From Clostridia bacterium (lineage in GTDB: Bacteria > Bacillota > Clostridia > Christensenellales > Aristaeellaceae), in the NCBI GenBank assembly GCA_017552615.1, contig JAFZPI010000035.1, positions 22,077-86,076 on the forward strand: a stretch of 64,000 nt of DNA. The letters run 5' to 3'. The first letter of the stretch is position 1; each line of letters starts with the position of its first letter. Below the pieces are notes generated by a model. That model was not told where the DNA came from and made no database searches. It saw only the letters and a list, made by a program, of their open reading frames with translations. The position numbers were made by a program, and so were the translations under genes. Shown here in pieces: positions 7,757 through 55,911 of this stretch.

Positions 7757-8761
7757 ATGCACCTCATTATCCCTGAAAACTACAATCCCGTCCTCGACCT
7801 CCGCGACACCGAGATCGCCATCAAGCTGGTCAAGGACTTCTTCGAGACCGAGCTGGCCCGCGCGCTGAACCTGACCCGCGTGTCCGCGCCAATCATGGTG
7901 ACGCCGGAGAGCGGTCTGAACGACAACCTGAACGGCGTCGAACGGCCGGTTTCCTTTGACATCCTCGAAACTGGGCGTCAGGCCGAGATCGTGCACTCGC
8001 TGGCCAAGTGGAAGCGTCAGGCGCTGAAGACCTACGGTTTCCACCCGGGTGAGGGTCTCTACACCGACATGAACGCCATCCGCCGCGACGAGGAGACCGA
8101 CAACATCCACTCGATCTTCGTCGACCAGTGGGACTGGGAGCGGATCATCACCCGCGAGGAGCGGAACATCGACTTCCTGAAAATGATCGTCCGGAAGATC
8201 TACCTGACCCTCCGCAAGACCGAGGGTTATGTATGCGCCCACTATCCGCACATCAAGCCCGAGCTCCCGGACGAGATCACCTTCGTCACGACCCAGGAGC
8301 TAGAGGACCGCTGGCCGGAGAAAACCAGCCGCGAGCGCGAGTATGCCGCCGCCCGGGAGTGGGGCGCGGTATTCCTGATGGGCATCGGCGGCAAGCTGAA
8401 GTCCGGGAAGATCCACGACGGCCGCGCGCCCGACTATGACGACTGGGCGCTGAACGGCGACATCCTGCTGTACTCCCGCCTGCTGGACATCTCCCTCGAG
8501 GTCTCGAGCATGGGCATCCGCGTGGACGAGGAGAGCCTCCGCCGCCAGCTCAAGGAGCGCGGCTGCGAGGAACGCGCCGAGCTGCCCTTCCAGAAGGCCC
8601 TGCTGAACGGCGAACTGCCCCTGACCATCGGCGGCGGCATCGGACAGAGCCGCATGTGCGTCTACTTCCTCCGCAAAGCCCACGTCGGCGAAGTTCAGGC
8701 CTCTCTCTGGCCGGACGACGTGACCGAAGCGTGCCGGAAAGCGAATATTCAGTTGCTGTAA
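7757..8761 (+). CDS. asnA: aspartate--ammonia ligase (asparagine synthetase A)
   Basis: 334 residues, full length for AsnA, a class II aminoacyl-tRNA-synthetase-like enzyme that makes asparagine from aspartate, ATP and free ammonia. Seen: the N-terminal VSAPIMV segment, GLNDNLNGVERPV, TDMNAIRRDE, VDQWDWE, and the C-terminal GGGIGQSR motif 3. AAGGAG lies 8 nt upstream. Use of ammonia rather than glutamine matches the ammonia-based route suggested for the glm operon at 49.7-52.9 kb. Confidence 0.97.
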   Translation: MHLIIPENYNPVLDLRDTEIAIKLVKDFFETELARALNLTRVSAPIMVTPESGLNDNLNGVERPVSFDILETGRQAEIVHSLAKWKRQALKTYGFHPGEGLYTDMNAIRRDEETDNIHSIFVDQWDWERIITREERNIDFLKMIVRKIYLTLRKTEGYVCAHYPHIKPELPDEITFVTTQELEDRWPEKTSREREYAAAREWGAVFLMGIGGKLKSGKIHDGRAPDYDDWALNGDILLYSRLLDISLEVSSMGIRVDEESLRRQLKERGCEERAELPFQKALLNGELPLTIGGGIGQSRMCVYFLRKAHVGEVQASLWPDDVTEACRKANIQLL

Positions 8762-47695: not shown

Positions 47696-47977
47696 ATGAC
47701 CATGGTCAATATCAGTGTCCGCGTGGATCCCGCGCTGAAAAAGCAGGCGGATGCCCTGTTTTCCGATTTGGGATTGAATATGTCCACGGCTGTCAATATG
47801 TTCCTGAAAACCGCTGTCAGTCATAACGGGATTCCGTTTGAAGTGCGACGCCCCACACCGAATGCTGAAACCCGGGCTGCATTGGCCGAGTACAAGGAAA
47901 TGAAGCGGAATCCCGCAGCGTATAAGCGCTACGATACCTTCGAGGACCTGATGGGTGAGGTACTCGATGATGCTTAA
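47696..47977 (+). CDS. RelB/DinJ family antitoxin
   Basis: 93 residues: N-terminal ribbon-helix-helix (VNISVRVDPALKKQADALFSDLGLNMSTAVNMFLKTAV) that binds operator DNA, and a C-terminal arm that would wrap the toxin. AAGGAG 8 nt before the ATG. It overlaps the toxin start by 11 nt. The toxin is interrupted, so the antitoxin may persist only as a regulator. Confidence 0.9.
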   Translation: MTMVNISVRVDPALKKQADALFSDLGLNMSTAVNMFLKTAVSHNGIPFEVRRPTPNAETRAALAEYKEMKRNPAAYKRYDTFEDLMGEVLDDA

Positions 47978-48992: not shown

Positions 48993-49551
48993 ACCACGGA
49001 TCCTCCTTCAAAACTCTTTTCAGCCGGCTGCGCGCCCGGCCTGTCATTGTACGAACGGACTCCGGAACGCAATGAAGAAATTCTGCAATCTCTGCATTTT
49101 CCAGATGTTCAAAGTATTTCCATTGGAGTAAAAGGTAATCTTTCCGAGATAATTGATGCATTGCAATCCGAATTCGTTCTGCTCCGATGGCAGCAAACGC
49201 TTCATCAGGCGGTTCGTTCACAGCAGGCAGCTCAACGACTTCTTCATCAGAAAACAGTTCCGGATGCCGCTCGCGAATGATGCTTACCGCTGTATGGCGA
49301 GAAGCAATGACGACATAACGACGCTGCTCATCTTCTGTCATTTTTGCGAGTTCATCTGTATGCTTCACCAATTTGAGCATCGTCTGCTGACATGCGTCTT
49401 CCGTATCTTGCACATGCAGCAAAACCAAGTACGCAGCTCGATACATGGCCGTCCCAAATTTGCCCCATATGGATTCGAGAACATTGCGTTGTTGTTTGCT
49501 GATTCTTGAAAGCCCATGGTCATGTGTTTTCCGATGAGGAAGTCTCTTCAC
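48967..49551 (-). CDS. ECF-type RNA polymerase sigma factor
   Basis: 194 residues with region 2 (MYRAAYLVLLHVQDTEDACQQTMLKLVKH) and region 4 (LSRKDYLLLQWKYFEHLENAEIAEFLHCVPESVRTMTGRARSRLK). GTG at 49551 follows GGGGGGG by 6 nt; longer upstream frame lacks a site. In its leader on the minus strand are CACCGCG-AATA-CGCGGTG and GGCAT-CTCG-ATGCC hairpins (49580-49640). Second sigma/anti-sigma pair in 6 kb. Confidence 0.85.
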   Translation of the reverse strand: MKRLPHRKTHDHGLSRISKQQRNVLESIWGKFGTAMYRAAYLVLLHVQDTEDACQQTMLKLVKHTDELAKMTEDEQRRYVVIASRHTAVSIIRERHPELFSDEEVVELPAVNEPPDEAFAAIGAERIRIAMHQLSRKDYLLLQWKYFEHLENAEIAEFLHCVPESVRTMTGRARSRLKRVLKEDPWFDEYWKGN

Positions 49552-49690
49552 GTTTCGCCCCCCCTTTCTCAATATAAACTCACCGCGAATACGCGGTGGC
49601 CAACCTCTGGCCGGAGGCATCTCGATGCCTGTCAGGATCCTTCACTAATATAAACGCAAATACAATAAAATCCGCAACAGTTATATCACA

Positions 49691-49728
49691 GAAAAAACCA
49701 GGAATCGTTCTGATTCCCGGCTTTTTTG
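49691..49728. terminator. bidirectional terminator of the glm operon
   Basis: AAAAAACCAGGAATC and GATTCCCGGCTTTTTT pair with small mismatches. Ends the glmM transcript. Confidence 0.85.
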
Positions 49729-49739
49729 AATTGGATGAT

Positions 49740-51089
49740 TTATTCCGCAATATGCCCCTTCGCCTTGATGACCTCGATCACGCTGTCCACATATTTCTCG
49801 CAGATCTCGTTGGTCTCGGCCTCGACCATCACGCGGATGACGGGTTCGGTGCCGGATTCGCGGACAAGAATGCGGCCAGTATCGCCAAGCTCGTCGGCAA
49901 CCTTCTTCACTGCGGCCTGGACGTCCGGATCGTTCTGGGCATCGGGCTTGGACTTCACGCGGACGTTCTTCAGCACCTGCGGATAGAAGACCACGGGAGC
50001 TGCCAGCTCGCTCATGGGCTTTTCTTTCGCGAGCATGACCTCCATCAGCTTCAGGGCCGTGACGATGCCGTCGCCGGTGGTCTCGTACTTGGAGAAGATG
50101 ATGTGGCCGGACTGCTCGCCGCCGATGCGGTTGCCGGTCTGCACCATGTTCTCATAGACGTATTTGTCGCCAACCTTGGTCTTGTCGTACTCGATGCCGA
50201 CCTTGTCCAGCGCCTTGTAGAGCCCGAAGTTGGACATGACCGTCGTGACGACCTTGTTATTCAGGAGCTTGCCGCGCTCTTTCATATACAGGCCGTAGAT
50301 GTAGAGGGTATGGTCACCGGTGACCACATTGCCCTTCTCGTCCACGCAGATGCAGCGGTCCGCATCGCCGTCGAAAGCGAAGCCGATGTCGAGCTGGTTC
50401 CCGACCACGAACTTCTGCAGGTGCTCGATGTGGGTGGAGCCGCAGTCCGTGTTGATGTTGTAGCCGTCGGGATTGTCGTTCATGACATAAGTCTTGGCGC
50501 CCAACGCCTCAAACACCGCACGGGCAATCTGCCACGCAGCACCGTTGGCCACGTCCAGGCCGACCTTCACACCCTTGAAAGAGTACTTTGACAGGGAGAT
50601 CAGGTGGCCGATGTAGCGGTTGCGGCCCGCGACATAGTCCACGGTCTTGCCAATCTTGTCGCGCAGCGCCATGGGAACCTCGCCGATGCCATCAATGTAG
50701 TCCTCAATCTTGTTGAGGACTTCTTCCTCCATCTTCTCGCCGTTCCCGTTCAGTACCTTGATGCCATTGTCGTAGAAGGGATTGTGGGAAGCCGAAATCA
50801 TGATACCGCAGTCGAAGTCGTCCACACGGGCGATGAAGCTGACGGAGGGCGTCGTGGTGACATGCATGATGTAGGCGTCCGCGCCGGAAGCCACGAGGCC
50901 CGTGCAGAGCGCATACTCAAACATATAGGAGGAGCGGCGGGTGTCCTTGCCGATGACGACCTTGGCCTTGCGGTTCAGACGGGCGCCATAGTACCAGCCC
51001 AGGTACCGGCCAATCTTGATCGCGTGTTCAAAGGTCAGGTTTTTGTTGGCCTCGCCGCGGAAGCCGTCGGTTCCGAAATACTTGCCCAT
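49740..51089 (-). CDS. glmM: phosphoglucosamine mutase
   Basis: 449 residues; converts glucosamine-6-phosphate to glucosamine-1-phosphate. N-terminal GTDGFRGEAN, phospho-serine loop GIMISASHNPFYDNGIK, metal loop DGDADRCI, sugar loop GGEQSGHI and C-terminal RESGTEPVIRV. The ATG shares one base with the nagB stop (TGATG), so the two are coupled. Second step of the route made by this operon. Confidence 0.96.
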   Translation of the reverse strand: MGKYFGTDGFRGEANKNLTFEHAIKIGRYLGWYYGARLNRKAKVVIGKDTRRSSYMFEYALCTGLVASGADAYIMHVTTTPSVSFIARVDDFDCGIMISASHNPFYDNGIKVLNGNGEKMEEEVLNKIEDYIDGIGEVPMALRDKIGKTVDYVAGRNRYIGHLISLSKYSFKGVKVGLDVANGAAWQIARAVFEALGAKTYVMNDNPDGYNINTDCGSTHIEHLQKFVVGNQLDIGFAFDGDADRCICVDEKGNVVTGDHTLYIYGLYMKERGKLLNNKVVTTVMSNFGLYKALDKVGIEYDKTKVGDKYVYENMVQTGNRIGGEQSGHIIFSKYETTGDGIVTALKLMEVMLAKEKPMSELAAPVVFYPQVLKNVRVKSKPDAQNDPDVQAAVKKVADELGDTGRILVRESGTEPVIRVMVEAETNEICEKYVDSVIEVIKAKGHIAE

Positions 51090-51880
51090 CACAGACGCTC
51101 CTTCCGTTCGATGTCGAGGAAGTACTTGTAGGTGTCCACGGTCAGCTCACCGCAGGCAGCCTCGTCACAGGCAATGATCGCACCGTTGTGCATCTGCAGG
51201 GCAGAGCAGGTCCACTTGTGGCTGACGTTCCCCTCGACCGTTGCGGCCAGGGCCCGGGCCTTGTTGTGGCCGTTGATCAGGATCAGGACTTCCTTGGAAT
51301 CCGTAACGGTGCCCACGCCCACAGAGAGCGCCTGGGACGGCACCTTCTCCGGATCGTTGCCGAAGAAGCGGCTGTTGACGATGCGGGTATCGGTGGTCAG
51401 GTTCCGCACGCCAGTGCGAGAAGCGAGAGAGGTAAAGGGCTCGTTGAAAGCGATGTGGCCGTCCACGCCGATGCCGCCCATGAACAGGTCGATGCCGCCG
51501 TAGGAGGCGATCTTGGCTTCGTAGCGCGCACACTCACCCTCGGGATCATCGGTCATGCCGTTGAGGATGTTGATGTTCTCGGGCTTCATGTCCACCAGAT
51601 GGTCAAAGAAGTTATCGTGCATGAAGTACCAGTAGCTCTGGTCATGCTCGTGGGGCAGGCCGAGGTATTCGTCCATGTTGAACGTCACCACATTGGCGAA
51701 GGAGAGCTCTCCAGCCTGGTTCTGCCGGGCCAGTTCCTTATAGACACCGATGGGGGAAGAACCCGTGGGGAGGCCCAGCACAAACGGCCGGTCTTCCTTG
51801 TGATTGCGGATCTTGTTGGCGATATAATCCGCAGCCCACTTGCACATTTTCTCGTAATTGTCCTGGATGACTACACGCAT
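51089..51880 (-). CDS. nagB: glucosamine-6-phosphate deaminase (NagB), probably biosynthetic here
   Basis: 263 residues. Catalytic residues are kept in NMDEYLGL and in GIGVDGHIAFNEP (Asp, His and Glu), with the phosphate loop GLPTGSSPIGVY. NagB reversibly interconverts glucosamine-6-phosphate and fructose-6-phosphate plus ammonia and is normally catabolic, next to nagA. Here it lies between an acetyltransferase and glmM behind a glmS-type ribozyme, with no nagA or PTS gene, so synthesis of glucosamine-6-phosphate from ammonia is inferred. Start at 51880 follows AAAGGAG. Confidence 0.95.
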   Translation of the reverse strand: MRVVIQDNYEKMCKWAADYIANKIRNHKEDRPFVLGLPTGSSPIGVYKELARQNQAGELSFANVVTFNMDEYLGLPHEHDQSYWYFMHDNFFDHLVDMKPENINILNGMTDDPEGECARYEAKIASYGGIDLFMGGIGVDGHIAFNEPFTSLASRTGVRNLTTDTRIVNSRFFGNDPEKVPSQALSVGVGTVTDSKEVLILINGHNKARALAATVEGNVSHKWTCSALQMHNGAIIACDEAACGELTVDTYKYFLDIERKERL

Positions 51881-51923
51881 GGAAATCAAGCTCCTTTGTT
51901 TGATTGTTTTATTGTGCTTTGAA

Positions 51924-51992
51924 ACCTCATCCACCGCTGCGGCGGTCCCCCTTCCCCTTTCAGGGGAAGGCTTCTGCCGGGGGGTGAGGTTT
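51924..51992. repeat. dispersed palindromic repeat, copy F
   Basis: AACCTCATCCACCGCTGCGG, then CTTCCCCTTTCAGGGGAAG, then GGGGGGTGAGGTTT; the outer AAACCTCA and TGAGGTTT also pair. It lies between the acetyltransferase and nagB, so it could lower nagB-glmM expression or be an RNA-processing site. Confidence 0.7.
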
Positions 51993-51994
51993 GA

Positions 51995-52654
51995 TTACTC
52001 GTGCTTCGTTACGATAACTCCGTTGTCCTTCCAGATGCTGTTGGGCGGGATGACGCCGCGGACGCAGCTGGTGGGATAGACGTTGGAATGGCGGCCGATG
52101 ACCGTGCCGGGGTTCAGGACGCTGTTGCAGCCCACTTCCACATAGTCGCCGATCATGGCGCCGAACTTCTTCAGGCCGGTCTCGATCTGCTCCGTGCCGT
52201 TGTGGACCACGACAAGCTTCTTGTCGCTCTTCACATTGGACGTGATGGAGCCTGCGCCGGTGTGCGAATAATAGCCCAGGATAGAGTCGCCCACATAGTT
52301 GTAGTGCGGCGTCTGGACGTGGTCGAAAAGGATCACGTTCTTCAGCTCGCAGGAATTGCCCACCACGCAGTCTGCACCCACCAGGGCGGAGCCGCGGATG
52401 AACGCGCAGTGCCGGACTTCGGTGTTCGGGCCGATAATGCAGGGCGCGCCGAGATAAGCGGACGGGAAGACCTTCGCGGTCTTGTGAACCCATACATGCT
52501 CGGAGACTTCGTTATAGTCCTCACCGAGGGTCGGGCCGAGCTGCAGGATGAAATCCTTGATGCCCTTCAGCGCTTCCCAGGGATAGGTGAACTGCGCAAG
52601 ATAGTCCTTGGCCAGGGTGTGTTCCAGGTCATACAGATCCAGAATTGTCAGCAT
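51995..52654 (-). CDS. left-handed beta-helix acetyltransferase (GlmU C-terminal-like)
   Basis: 219 residues. After about 60 residues it has hexapeptide repeats (VGADCVVGNSCELKNVILFD..) and the GlmU-type active region YVGDSILGYYSHTGAGSITSN. The uridylyltransferase half of GlmU is absent. The likely reaction is acetylation of glucosamine-1-phosphate to GlcNAc-1-phosphate; the UTP step would need another gene. GAGG lies 8 nt before the ATG. First gene after the ribozyme. Confidence 0.8.
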   Translation of the reverse strand: MLTILDLYDLEHTLAKDYLAQFTYPWEALKGIKDFILQLGPTLGEDYNEVSEHVWVHKTAKVFPSAYLGAPCIIGPNTEVRHCAFIRGSALVGADCVVGNSCELKNVILFDHVQTPHYNYVGDSILGYYSHTGAGSITSNVKSDKKLVVVHNGTEQIETGLKKFGAMIGDYVEVGCNSVLNPGTVIGRHSNVYPTSCVRGVIPPNSIWKDNGVIVTKHE

Positions 52655-52694
52655 ACACTTTTCCTCACATTCAGATTTGACCGGTGTCGCCGCG

Positions 52695-52822
52695 GGCTCT
52701 GTTGCGGTGTTGATTCCGCTTTTTAACCCCCGTCTACGGCTCACCGGGAGCCGTGGCAGCATCCGCCGAGTCTTTCGACCACTGCCATCCTCGTCAACCT
52801 TTTCAGGTCCTGGCGCTAACAA
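52695..52822 (-). ncRNA. glmS-class self-cleaving ribozyme/riboswitch
   Basis: Reading leftward: TTAGCGCCAGGACCTG (cleavage expected before the G at 52816), AGGTTGACGAGGATGG (52785-52800 region), TCGAAA, TCGGCGGATGC (52759-52769). Helices: TGGCAG/CTGCCA (52782-52787 with 52754-52759) and CGGCTC/GAGCCG (52737-52753). These are the conserved core segments and order of the glmS ribozyme, which uses glucosamine-6-phosphate as cofactor and destroys its mRNA. It sits about 40 nt upstream of the acetyltransferase start. The 3' limit is approximate. Confidence 0.85.
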
Positions 52823-52844
52823 GTCTTCGCGTCCTCCTTGCCGC

Positions 52845-52885
52845 AAAAAACCGTTTTACGGCACATAGAGTACCATAAAACGGTT
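52845..52885 (-). terminator. terminator of the MATE-ATPase gene
   Basis: AACCGTTTTA and TAAAACGGTT arms (52849-52858 and 52876-52885) followed on the minus strand by TTTT. The glm promoter lies across the same hairpin. Confidence 0.8.
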
Positions 52886-52895
52886 GATATGGCAA
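52867..52895 (-). promoter_or_regulatory. promoter of the ribozyme-nagB-glmM operon
   Basis: Reading leftward, TTGCCA (52890-52895), 17-bp spacer, TACTCT (52867-52872). The -10 lies in the loop of the preceding terminator. Confidence 0.55.
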
Positions 52896-52922
52896 GCCTT
52901 CATTAAGCAGTTTTCTTTCCCG

Positions 52923-54713
52923 TCAGATCCGCACCGTCAGGACATTCAGCCCCAGCAGGTTCTGGTAGCGAACTTCTTTCGCAATCTTGAACACCAACCG
53001 GATGCCGATGTTTTTGACGGGATCATCCGGGGTCAGCATCTGAGCGCGGTCAGAAGGATTGAACGGAACACAGTCGTCCCGGATGCGGAGAAGGATTCCG
53101 TCCTCCATGTGCACCACACGGATATCCGCCGAGTGATGCTTCTTGTTGTCCTTGACAAAGCCGTGGCTGACCACATTGGTTGCGAGCTCTTCGAGGGCAA
53201 GGCCGACATAGTTCGACCGGGTCGGATCAATGCCCCGCTCACGGCAGAACGCGATGACCCGGCGCGAGACATCCAGCACTTCCGGCATCTCGCGTACGGT
53301 GATGTCGAGCCGCTGGTCATCATCGGCGCCAAAGTCATCCGGGATGGCCAGAAGGCCCTCCATGTCTTTCGGTACACGCTTGCGCTCGATCCAGGCGTAG
53401 ACAAAGATCAGGGCAAAACAGATAAATCCGTTGAGGATGTTGGCCAGGTACAGGCCGTTCATGGTCGGCGCCATGGCCGGGATCAGGAACAGGCTGCACA
53501 GCACCACGCCCGCGAAGCCGTCCGTGACCGGGAGCAGAATGGAGAGGAGCTTCTTCCGCGCCGCCTGGGCATAGCAGGCAAAGTTCAGGCTGATGACAGC
53601 CAGCGGCATGCACAGAGGCAGGAGGCGGAAGCCCATCACCGTCAGTTCATAGACCCGGTCGGCCGAATTCTGATAGAAGAGCTGCGTCAGCGGTTCTGCC
53701 AGCGCCACCAGCAGGGCGGAAACAATGCACATCAGCGGGACGCCGTACCGGAAGACGACGCGCATCGTATCCGCAAGGGAGCGCCGGTCCTCCTCCCCGA
53801 TATAGATACTGAAGAGCATCCGGGCAACCGCCACCATGCCGAACGGCAGTGACCAGATGATTGCTAAGAACGAATTGGATGCAGCAAAGGCCGAAAGGCC
53901 GACGCTCCCGACATACTTGAGCACCAGGATGTTCACAATAATGCATCTGAACATCTCCACAAAGCGGGAGATCGCGCCGGAATAGCCGAGTTTGACAATA
54001 TTGAAGGCTTCTTTCCGGCGGCAGGCCCTGAAGGAAAACTTCAGTTCCGACTTTCCGGAGAGGAACCAGTGCGCCTGTACGCCGAAGAAGACCCAAAGCC
54101 CCGCAGAGGAGCCCAGCCCGAGGCCGAGGGTCTTCATATCCAGCAGGACGACAAAAACGTAATTCATCGCCACGTTGGACAGGAAGCAGGACAGGCTGGC
54201 GATCATGGTCCGTTTTGTGCGGTTTTCCAGGGAGAGGAAGGCAAAGAGCTGCTGCCCAAGCACCAGGGCCGGGATGCCGACCGACTGGCCGAAGATATAC
54301 TGCTTCAGCAAGTCATGCTCTGCGGGATCCGACACAAGGACCCGGGTCAGGTTCGTCGCAGCGGCAAGAACCAGGATCAGGGATGTCAGGACAGAAAGGC
54401 AGGCCGAGAACACCAGGTCCACGGAGAATACGCCCCTGATCTTTTCCGGCTCCTTGCCCAGATACCGGCCGTACAGAAGCTGTGAACCGCTGACGAGCAT
54501 GATGCTGGCGGCATAGAGGAAATGGTTCAGCGGAGAATACAGACCGATGGCGCTCATGGCCTTCTCCCCCAGTTCCGCACTGCCCATCCCGTTGCTCGCA
54601 TACAGGCTGTCCACGATCCCGTTGATTGCGGTGATTACGATCAGCAGCATCTGATAGGGCAACAGGCGGAAAAACACGCCGGCAAGAAGTTTATGGTCGG
54701 AAGATGGTTTCAT
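52923..54713 (-). CDS. MATE-type transporter fused to a GHKL ATPase domain
   Basis: 596 residues. The first 450 or so carry 12 membrane helices in a MATE/MOP pattern (FRLLPYQMLLIVITAINGIVDSLYAS at the start). The last 135 are a HATPase_c_2 domain like anti-sigma kinase RsbW: YVGLALEELATNVVSHGF (N box), RIRDDCVPFNPSDR (G1 box) and NIGIRLVFKIAKEV. The ATPase would lie in the cytoplasm. GGAGG before the ATG at 54713. The fused domain may link transport or lipid flipping to a partner-switch system, none of which is nearby. Confidence 0.88.
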   Translation of the reverse strand: MKPSSDHKLLAGVFFRLLPYQMLLIVITAINGIVDSLYASNGMGSAELGEKAMSAIGLYSPLNHFLYAASIMLVSGSQLLYGRYLGKEPEKIRGVFSVDLVFSACLSVLTSLILVLAAATNLTRVLVSDPAEHDLLKQYIFGQSVGIPALVLGQQLFAFLSLENRTKRTMIASLSCFLSNVAMNYVFVVLLDMKTLGLGLGSSAGLWVFFGVQAHWFLSGKSELKFSFRACRRKEAFNIVKLGYSGAISRFVEMFRCIIVNILVLKYVGSVGLSAFAASNSFLAIIWSLPFGMVAVARMLFSIYIGEEDRRSLADTMRVVFRYGVPLMCIVSALLVALAEPLTQLFYQNSADRVYELTVMGFRLLPLCMPLAVISLNFACYAQAARKKLLSILLPVTDGFAGVVLCSLFLIPAMAPTMNGLYLANILNGFICFALIFVYAWIERKRVPKDMEGLLAIPDDFGADDDQRLDITVREMPEVLDVSRRVIAFCRERGIDPTRSNYVGLALEELATNVVSHGFVKDNKKHHSADIRVVHMEDGILLRIRDDCVPFNPSDRAQMLTPDDPVKNIGIRLVFKIAKEVRYQNLLGLNVLTVRI

Positions 54714-54754
54714 CCCGCACCTCCGCGATGAAGAGTCATTGCCAATTTCGTTCA

Positions 54755-54783
54755 ATCTTAGCATAATATGTAGGAATTGACAA
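54755..54783 (-). promoter_or_regulatory. promoter of the MATE-ATPase gene
   Basis: Reading leftward, TTGTCA (54778-54783), 17-bp spacer, TAAGAT (54755-54760). The divergent DUF368 promoter has the same TAAGAT -10. Confidence 0.75.
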
Positions 54784-54897: not shown

Positions 54898-54926
54898 TTG
54901 AAACGGTAACAGAGCGGTGCTAAGAT
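54898..54926 (+). promoter_or_regulatory. promoter of the DUF368 gene
   Basis: TTGAAA (54898-54903), 17-bp spacer, TAAGAT (54921-54926). Confidence 0.75.
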
Positions 54927-54972
54927 GATATCTGGACAACCGCCCCATTCAAGAACCGAAAGGAAGCATTCC

Positions 54973-55911
54973 GTGAAACTTCTGATCGACATCCTGCGCG
55001 GGGCTGTCATCGGCCTGGCCAATGTCATCCCCGGTGTGTCCGGCGGCACCATGATGGTGTCGATGGGCATCTATGACACCATTATCGACTGCATCAACAA
55101 CCTCTTCAAGCACTTCAAGGCCTGCATCAAAGTCCTCTGGCCCTACCTTCTGGGCATGGCGCTCGCGGTTCTCGCGGGTTCCCTGGTCCTGAAGAAAGCC
55201 TTCGAAGAGTACCCGCTGCCCACCAACGCTCTGTTTATCGGCCTGATCCTCGGGAGCCTCCCGATCATCTGGAAACAGGTCAAAGACGAGAAGCTCAACC
55301 CCCTGCACGTGTTCATCTTCCTCCTCTTCGCGGCCGCGGTCATCGTGCCGAAGATCATCGCAAACCAGGGAGACGGCATCAAGCAGGAAGCCGCCACCGA
55401 CCCGCTCCACCTGCTCCTGTATGTCGGTCTCGGCATCATTGCATCAGCTTCGATGGTCATCCCGGGGATTTCCGGCTCCATGATGCTGAAGATCTTCGGA
55501 TACTACGAGACCGTGGTGACCGATACCCTCGGCGGGACCGTAAAGGATATCTTGGCAGGTAACTTCGCCAATATCGGACACGCGCTCCTGGTGCTGGTCC
55601 CCTTCGCGATCGGCATCGTGATCGGTATCTTCGGGGTCGCGAAGCTCATCGGCTGGCTGCTGAAGCGCTGGAAAGGCTATACTTACGCCGCGATTCTCGG
55701 CATGGTCGTGGCCTCCCCGGTGGTCATCCTCTTTGACAAGGGCAACTGGCTGAAAGAGGAAATCGTGGACGGAGTCGTGACCGGAAACCTCGTTGCGCGC
55801 TACGACGCCTTCCCAGTCGGCATCGTCATCGCATCCGTCATTCTCCTGGCTGTCGGCTTCTTCGTCGCCCTGAAGCTCAGCGGCGATCCGGAAGAGCCCG
55901 CAAAACCGTAA
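54973..55911 (+). CDS. DUF368 polyprenyl-phosphate transporter family protein
   Basis: 312 residues, about eight to ten membrane helices, with paired GVSGGT and GISGSM motifs (NVIPGVSGGTMMVSMGIYD, MVIPGISGSMMLKIFGYY) typical of DUF368. Members have been shown to move undecaprenyl phosphate across the membrane for reuse in wall synthesis (PopT). GTG at 54973 with AAAGGA 8 nt upstream is chosen; the longer frame from 54925 overlaps the promoter. Confidence 0.9.
   Translation: MKLLIDILRGAVIGLANVIPGVSGGTMMVSMGIYDTIIDCINNLFKHFKACIKVLWPYLLGMALAVLAGSLVLKKAFEEYPLPTNALFIGLILGSLPIIWKQVKDEKLNPLHVFIFLLFAAAVIVPKIIANQGDGIKQEAATDPLHLLLYVGLGIIASASMVIPGISGSMMLKIFGYYETVVTDTLGGTVKDILAGNFANIGHALLVLVPFAIGIVIGIFGVAKLIGWLLKRWKGYTYAAILGMVVASPVVILFDKGNWLKEEIVDGVVTGNLVARYDAFPVGIVIASVILLAVGFFVALKLSGDPEEPAKP

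Follow-up and report, generated by a model that had tools for sequence, protein, structure and literature searches.

We analysed a 64,000-nt stretch of DNA (the window) from contig JAFZPI010000035.1 of a Clostridia bacterium (assembly GCA_017552615.1, GTDB family Aristaeellaceae), in which an RNA of the glmS ribozyme class leads an operon containing nagB, the gene for glucosamine-6-phosphate deaminase/isomerase. On the same strand behind the ribozyme lie act, nagB and glmM, followed by an intrinsic terminator (Table 1). An earlier note, made from the letters of the sequence alone, had proposed this gene order and an operon without glmS, and both hold: the genes downstream are act, nagB and glmM, with no glmS in the operon. 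The ribozyme core that it had placed at 52695–52822 falls inside a significant match to RF00234 (cmscan of Infernal) that exceeds the gathering score of 37 and runs over the full model (positions 1–167 of 167), the single match across the 2.03 Mb of the source genome. AsnA, which the note had also seen in the window, is there as well.

Table 1 Coordinates of the ribozyme, the operon behind it and asnA in the window
Feature	Position	Strand	Evidence
glmS-class ribozyme (RF00234)	52681..52828	-	cmscan 61.6 bits, E 9.1e-12, full length; sole match in genome
act, left-handed beta-helix acetyltransferase, 219 aa	51995..52654	-	TIGR03992 139.7 bits (under cut-off 292.1); PF00132
nagB, glucosamine-6-phosphate deaminase/isomerase, long class, 263 aa	51089..51880	-	TIGR00502 379.3 bits, cut-off 236.9
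glmM, phosphoglucosamine mutase	49740..51089	-	TIGR01455 537.2 bits, cut-off 447.55; sole glmM over cut-off in genome
intrinsic terminator 3' of glmM	49690..49722	-	10-bp hairpin then UUUUUU; dG -15.4 kcal/mol, z -4.14
asnA	7757..8761	+	TIGR00669 341.1 bits, cut-off 292.8

By homology with the glmS ribozyme family, cleavage presumably falls at A52817/G52816. The motifs GCGCC, GACGAGG and CGGCGG, which we take to form the surroundings of the cleavage site and the pocket for glucosamine-6-phosphate (GlcN6P), are present in the window ribozyme and in its relatives (in the 38 named loci described below, by construction of the search motif). Just 5' of the ribozyme, at 52850–52862 on the minus strand, there is a weak terminator-like hairpin of five pairs followed by a T run; a promoter pattern scan of 49550–53000 gave no sigma-70-like promoter.

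The act ATG begins 27 nt beyond the last ribozyme base. The best NCBIfam match of its product covers only model positions 213–393, with the nucleotidyltransferase half absent; its best PDB relatives are 5z09 and 2ggo (E ~1e-21), and it is similar to the C-terminal half of GlmU of the archaeal type. It is likely a glucosamine-1-phosphate N-acetyltransferase of the stand-alone GlmU C-terminal type. The window NagB belongs to the long class, set here at scores of at least 361 bits, and matches PDB chain 1cd5, which we take to be E. coli NagB, with an E value of 2.2e-94. The start codon of glmM overlaps the stop codon of nagB, beginning on its last base, and a separate pattern scan gave the hairpin behind glmM on the plus strand only. 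Between act and nagB, at 51925–51998, sits a GC-rich palindromic insert with two hairpins (dG -32 kcal/mol, z -2.2, equalled by 5 of 200 shuffles). Within the window its 27-base core is unique, and among 252 fetched loci the exact core recurs only as two copies of the same place; the insert could affect nagB expression or mRNA stability. Loci L249 to L252 of this collection played no further part in the analysis.

The arrangement was sought in 150 genomes of the window's GTDB family and 396 genomes of its order, with filters that lose weak matches, so that the counts are lower bounds (labels beginning with G denote sampled genomes, those with L fetched loci). At least 16 of the 150 family genomes carry the ribozyme. 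It leads nagB and glmM in nine of them (the window, G054, G099, G116, G009, G013, G084, G064 and G131), with act too except in G013, and glmS in four (G040, G052, G140 and G020); the remaining three have neither nagB nor glmS behind the ribozyme, which precedes act and glmM only in G017, has no recognised target in G005 and lies at a contig end in G102. At least 19 of the 396 order genomes matched, five of them already in the family set. The 14 new matches comprise five with nagB (G158, G243, G357, G281 and G203), six with glmS, one at a contig edge and two by chance; L103 (26.5 bits) and L104 (25.4 bits) were rejected as true ribozymes, having no matching gene beside them, and G102 and L092, which end at contig edges, were not counted as nagB-linked. 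For G203 the link would bridge a contig break, with the ribozyme ending one contig and the contig that contains nagB opening with nagB and glmM. Ribozyme and nagB thus occur together in 14 genomes of the order, window included, from four families by the tool's labels.

A second set consisted of the best 80 NagB loci among named genomes (more existed), with taxon labels taken from the record titles. By hand count, 57 of these titles bear the codes RUG, which we take to denote rumen genomes, or RGIG, in titles that name ruminant gut sites; one, Ruminococcaceae bacterium P7 (L148), points to a strain in culture, and this genome has two glmS and one nagB over the cut-off. In 38 of the 80 loci the core motif of the ribozyme was present, always upstream of nagB on the nagB strand and nowhere else in the loci. 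When 20 of the 38 were examined by cmscan all exceeded the gathering score, compared with none of six loci without the motif. Six other nagB loci lacking the core (L078, L079, L080, L081, L082 and L087) gave no ribozyme even with E values as high as 10 allowed; for the rest of the core-less loci the check was by motif only. Three genomes are shared between the sets (L183 is G158, L176 is G357 and L184 is G009, with the same core sequences and match places) and, if these are all the overlaps, the sets together hold 49 distinct genomes. A genuine glmS-class ribozyme is re-used on nagB in many ruminant-gut bacteria and their relatives.

Of the 38 named loci, 31 have nagB as the gene next to the ribozyme, six have act and one has glmM, and in six loci (L161, L163, L165, L182, L185 and L187) nagB follows without act or glmM in the fetched DNA, which extends beyond nagB. 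The ribozyme link is therefore specific to nagB. In L182 the order is ribozyme-nagB-yvcK/glmR (TIGR01826 268.2 bits, cut-off 196); YvcK, or GlmR, is described as playing an important part in channelling carbon towards peptidoglycan in B. subtilis (PMC6171935). Placed on a tree of NagB, the ribozyme label changes 16 times, at least four of them forced, which rules out a single origin of the link and indicates repeated gain or loss; horizontal spread of ribozyme-nagB is likely. Separately, three loci (L191, L193 and L199) in metagenome-assembled genomes labelled Spirochaetales and Flexilinea (Chloroflexota) encode NagB 79–87% identical to the window's, with glmM nearby in two, and reflect either horizontal transfer or mislabelled genomes.

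Structural conservation was examined in 48 distinct nagB-linked ribozymes, 47 of which matched the P4 motif (L168 did not). Stem P3.1 has a mean of 6.55 bp, compared with 5.45 (standard deviation 0.11, maximum 5.81) when the 3' strands were swapped between sequences, and none of 500 swaps reached as high. Of the four P4 pairs, one varies freely and is paired in all 47 sequences, as G-C in 24 and as A-U in 23, and the outermost keeps a standard pairing in 39 of them; the remaining two are restricted by the P4 motif itself and carry no weight as evidence. Since covariation is seen in P3.1 and at one P4 pair over the 47 sequences, we conclude that the nagB-linked ribozymes bear the signature of structural selection. 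Four nagB-linked ribozymes (L038, L040, L041 and L105) have a P1 stretch expanded to 59–92 nt, and with such an expansion the Rfam model can miss the true 5' end of the ribozyme, as seen in L040 and L041.

The other two genes of the operon look like housekeeping copies. The operon glmM is the sole glmM over the cut-off in 12 of the 14 carriers (in G131 it is split over two contigs with both pieces under the cut-off, and G281 has a second glmM), and a search of 22 genomes for bifunctional GlmU gave one, G281, with a match over the cut-off. The operon therefore appears to be the principal path to N-acetylglucosamine-1-phosphate (GlcNAc-1-phosphate). One ribozyme leads both nagB and glmS in L194 (ribozyme-act-nagB-glmM-glmS; 38.0 bits, just over the gathering score) and in L204 (ribozyme-glmM-nagB-glmS; 55.6 bits). 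Without a ribozyme, nagB also lies beside glmS in L192 (nagB-act-glmM-glmS) and G016/L078 (glmS-act-nagB-glmM). These shared operons are the strongest context for a biosynthetic direction of NagB.

The most likely function of the ribozyme is feedback on an ammonia-dependent GlcN6P synthase beside GlmS: probably, a GlcN6P-sensing RNA gives negative feedback on an operon whose GlcN6P maker is NagB. Judging from the operon context, NagB would work in the aminating direction, converting fructose-6-phosphate (Fru6P) and ammonia to GlcN6P, which GlmM and the acetyltransferase would take on to GlcNAc-1-phosphate. As GlcN6P rises, the ribozyme, if active and responsive to GlcN6P in vivo, would cleave the 5' end and the operon would be turned down. 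Most carriers would then possess a second, ammonia-dependent entry to amino-sugar synthesis beside the glutamine-dependent GlmS, and in a few NagB may be the only entry. The glmS ribozyme is described as responding to GlcN6P and, by its cleavage, as triggering turnover of the glmS mRNA (PMC11602151). A GlcN6P producer fits this sign and a deaminase does not, because the ribozyme would shut a deaminase off by its own substrate.

Several observations weigh against feedback on a biosynthetic NagB. Two of the 14 ribozymes fall under the gathering score (G203, 36.3 bits; G281, 24.1 bits), and nagB lies beside glmM without a ribozyme core in 22 loci (15 of them also with act), as against 50 rows with the core, which include two second copies of the same genomes. 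In G017 (L029; 97% complete) the ribozyme-act-glmM cluster contains neither nagB nor glmS, and in G005 (L034; 100% complete) the ribozyme stands after glmM; both genomes lack glmS over the cut-off. A single nagB is over the cut-off in 37 of 42 genomes (those of G203 and G550 cut at contig ends), and nagA is over the cut-off in 11 of the 14 carriers. Nor does long NagB complement the absence of glmS: among the 150 family genomes, glmS is over the cut-off in 21 of the 36 that have long NagB and in 61 of the 114 that do not, and a test for phyletic complementarity did not find it. Finally, all 106 long-class NagB rows, ribozyme-linked or not, read SRTG[VIL]R at the stretch of the E. coli allosteric site, where PDB chains have SRTRIK (L099, whose locus ends before nagB, and L102 are outside this comparison).

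At this allosteric stretch the three PDB chains read SRTRIKT and the window NagB SRTGVRN. Arg158 and Thr161 are presumably residues of the site for N-acetylglucosamine-6-phosphate (GlcNAc6P) in E. coli NagB. Lys160 is described as lying on that site (PMC4008608). The substitution hints at altered allostery of the whole long class and not of the ribozyme group, and loss of allosteric residues was rejected as a mark of ribozyme-controlled NagB.

It is unlikely that NagB has replaced GlmS altogether, as the earlier note had proposed, and is the sole GlcN6P source in the window's organism. glmS is over the cut-off, at full length, in 10 of the 14 carriers and, in some cases in pieces at contig ends, in 30 of the 38 named carriers (the ribozyme was sought genome-wide in the former and at the fetched loci in the latter); in four named carriers it lies inside the fetched locus (L167, L179, L194 and L204). 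The note had weighed a normal glmS elsewhere, under its own ribozyme, against its proposal: in these ten relatives glmS is present, but the one ribozyme detected in each genome is located elsewhere. What stands of the note's interpretation is feedback, which fits the genuine and conserved ribozyme, its linkage to nagB, the nagB-glmS operons and the housekeeping glmM and act; the substitution for GlmS does not stand.

In favour of full replacement, four of the 14 carriers have no glmS over the cut-off, namely the source genome, G116 (89% complete), G064 (96%) and G158 (98%), where 1.04 would be expected under random incompleteness (P 0.014 for four or more). In the source assembly the best glmS match was one of 110 bits to the first 221 model positions, but this assembly is 72.8% complete and lacks pyrG too, so that absence from the organism is not established. 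Within the genus of the window, glmS and pyrG are neighbours in the sister species G099 and G074, a comparison that left out three further sampled members; G054, with the two genes on different contigs, shows that the linkage is not universal. Both glmS and pyrG stay under the cut-off in the source genome and likewise in G158 and G064 (G064 shows a partial pyrG match of 23.7 bits). A missing segment would explain this joint absence and is the simple reading for the source genome, where the lack of glmS is probably an assembly gap. G116, the only glmS-less carrier with pyrG, is the best candidate for a true absence. In the family as a whole, 68 of the 150 genomes have no glmS over the cut-off and 53 have neither glmS nor long-class NagB, several of these above 95% complete.

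It is also quite improbable that NagB acts as a deaminase, either catabolic or as a relief valve, with the ribozyme acting in an inverted or tuned manner, such that cleavage on GlcN6P leaves nagB expression undiminished. NagB is described as a catabolic deaminase in most organisms (PMC4281351), and GlmS and NagB as regulated in opposite directions in S. mutans (PMC3306399). The presence of nagA in most carriers together with a mostly single nagB means that NagB may also serve N-acetylglucosamine (GlcNAc) breakdown. However, the ribozyme-led loci L194 and L204 hold nagB together with glmS, G243, G357 and G203 carry ribozyme-nagB with no nagA over the cut-off, and in G116 a separate short-class nagB adjoins nagA while the long nagB sits under the ribozyme; the mRNA turnover triggered by cleavage also speaks against an inverted effect.

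That glmM or act is the real target and nagB a passenger is very hard to credit: act and glmM are each present in 38 of the 50 ribozyme rows (some cut by contig ends), and G017 has the ribozyme before these two alone, but nagB is mostly the first gene and six ribozyme-nagB loci have neither. Just as improbable is a decayed relic without function, for although ribozymes over the gathering score reach 38–73 bits before nagB, and less in G203 and G281, compared with 82–103 bits in ten glmS-leading loci, the core motifs are kept and the stems covary.

Feedback on an ammonia-dependent NagB would set this locus apart from known systems while re-using their parts. With the glmS ribozyme in the 5' untranslated region of glmS, for example in Bacillus subtilis, it shares the RNA family, the core motifs and the 5' placement ahead of a gene for GlcN6P metabolism; unlike there, the gene led is nagB, with act and glmM, and not glmS, and P1 is expanded in four relatives. 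Another close arrangement is the glmS-act-glmM operon of the same family (ribozyme-glmS-act-glmM in G020), which has the same ribozyme, act and glmM, whereas here nagB takes the place of glmS. Catabolic nagAB operons contain the same nagB family, but there nagB is induced by amino sugars, whereas here it adjoins glmM and act, and in some relatives glmS, behind a ribozyme of a GlcN6P-activated class. As an enzyme, a close parallel is the NagB of Giardia, described as making GlcN6P from Fru6P and ammonia, with a Km for NH4Cl of 19 to 23 mM and no modification by GlcNAc6P (PMC4281351); what is shown there is proposed here from gene context. Unlike the present long-class enzymes near E. coli NagB, the Giardia protein is eukaryotic and mostly monomeric, and the passages of that report drawn on here mention no ribozyme.

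The glmS ribozyme is known from textbooks as the regulator of a single gene. McCown et al. 2011 are said to have placed all but two of 463 glmS ribozyme representatives in glmS mRNAs. We found no report of a glmS ribozyme before nagB in the open-licence literature, searched by title and start of abstract; the exceptions of McCown et al. 2011, 2012 could be such cases. A large natural ribozyme-nagB set would mean that one sensor has been recruited to control a second, unrelated enzyme, and the known sign of the ribozyme predicts the direction of NagB in vivo. If the proposed feedback is true, many gut bacteria use NagB for biosynthesis and feed ammonia directly into their amino sugars, and in those with ribozyme-nagB it is wrong to annotate nagB as a marker of catabolism. 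The ammonia-rich rumen may be the reason for an ammonia-using NagB. More tentatively, and with considerable doubt, we suggest that ammonia-fed NagB could be the chief de novo supplier of GlcN6P for cell walls in a set of mostly ruminant-gut bacteria, and for some species the sole one, with a compact ribozyme-nagB-act-glmM cassette moving between families; one class of RNA switch would then govern GlmS and NagB, two enzymes that are unrelated but arrive at one metabolite from different nitrogen donors.

Around the operon, the gene on its 5' side (52923–54764, minus strand) encodes a MATE transporter whose C-terminus carries a histidine-kinase-like ATPase domain (PF01554 and PF13581), a fusion that seemed unusual. 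An undecaprenyl/polyprenyl-phosphate translocase-like protein (PF04018) at 54925–55911 on the plus strand is a further cell-wall gene near the operon, and on the other side, at 47696–47977 on the plus strand, lies a gene for a RelB antitoxin-like protein (PF04221).

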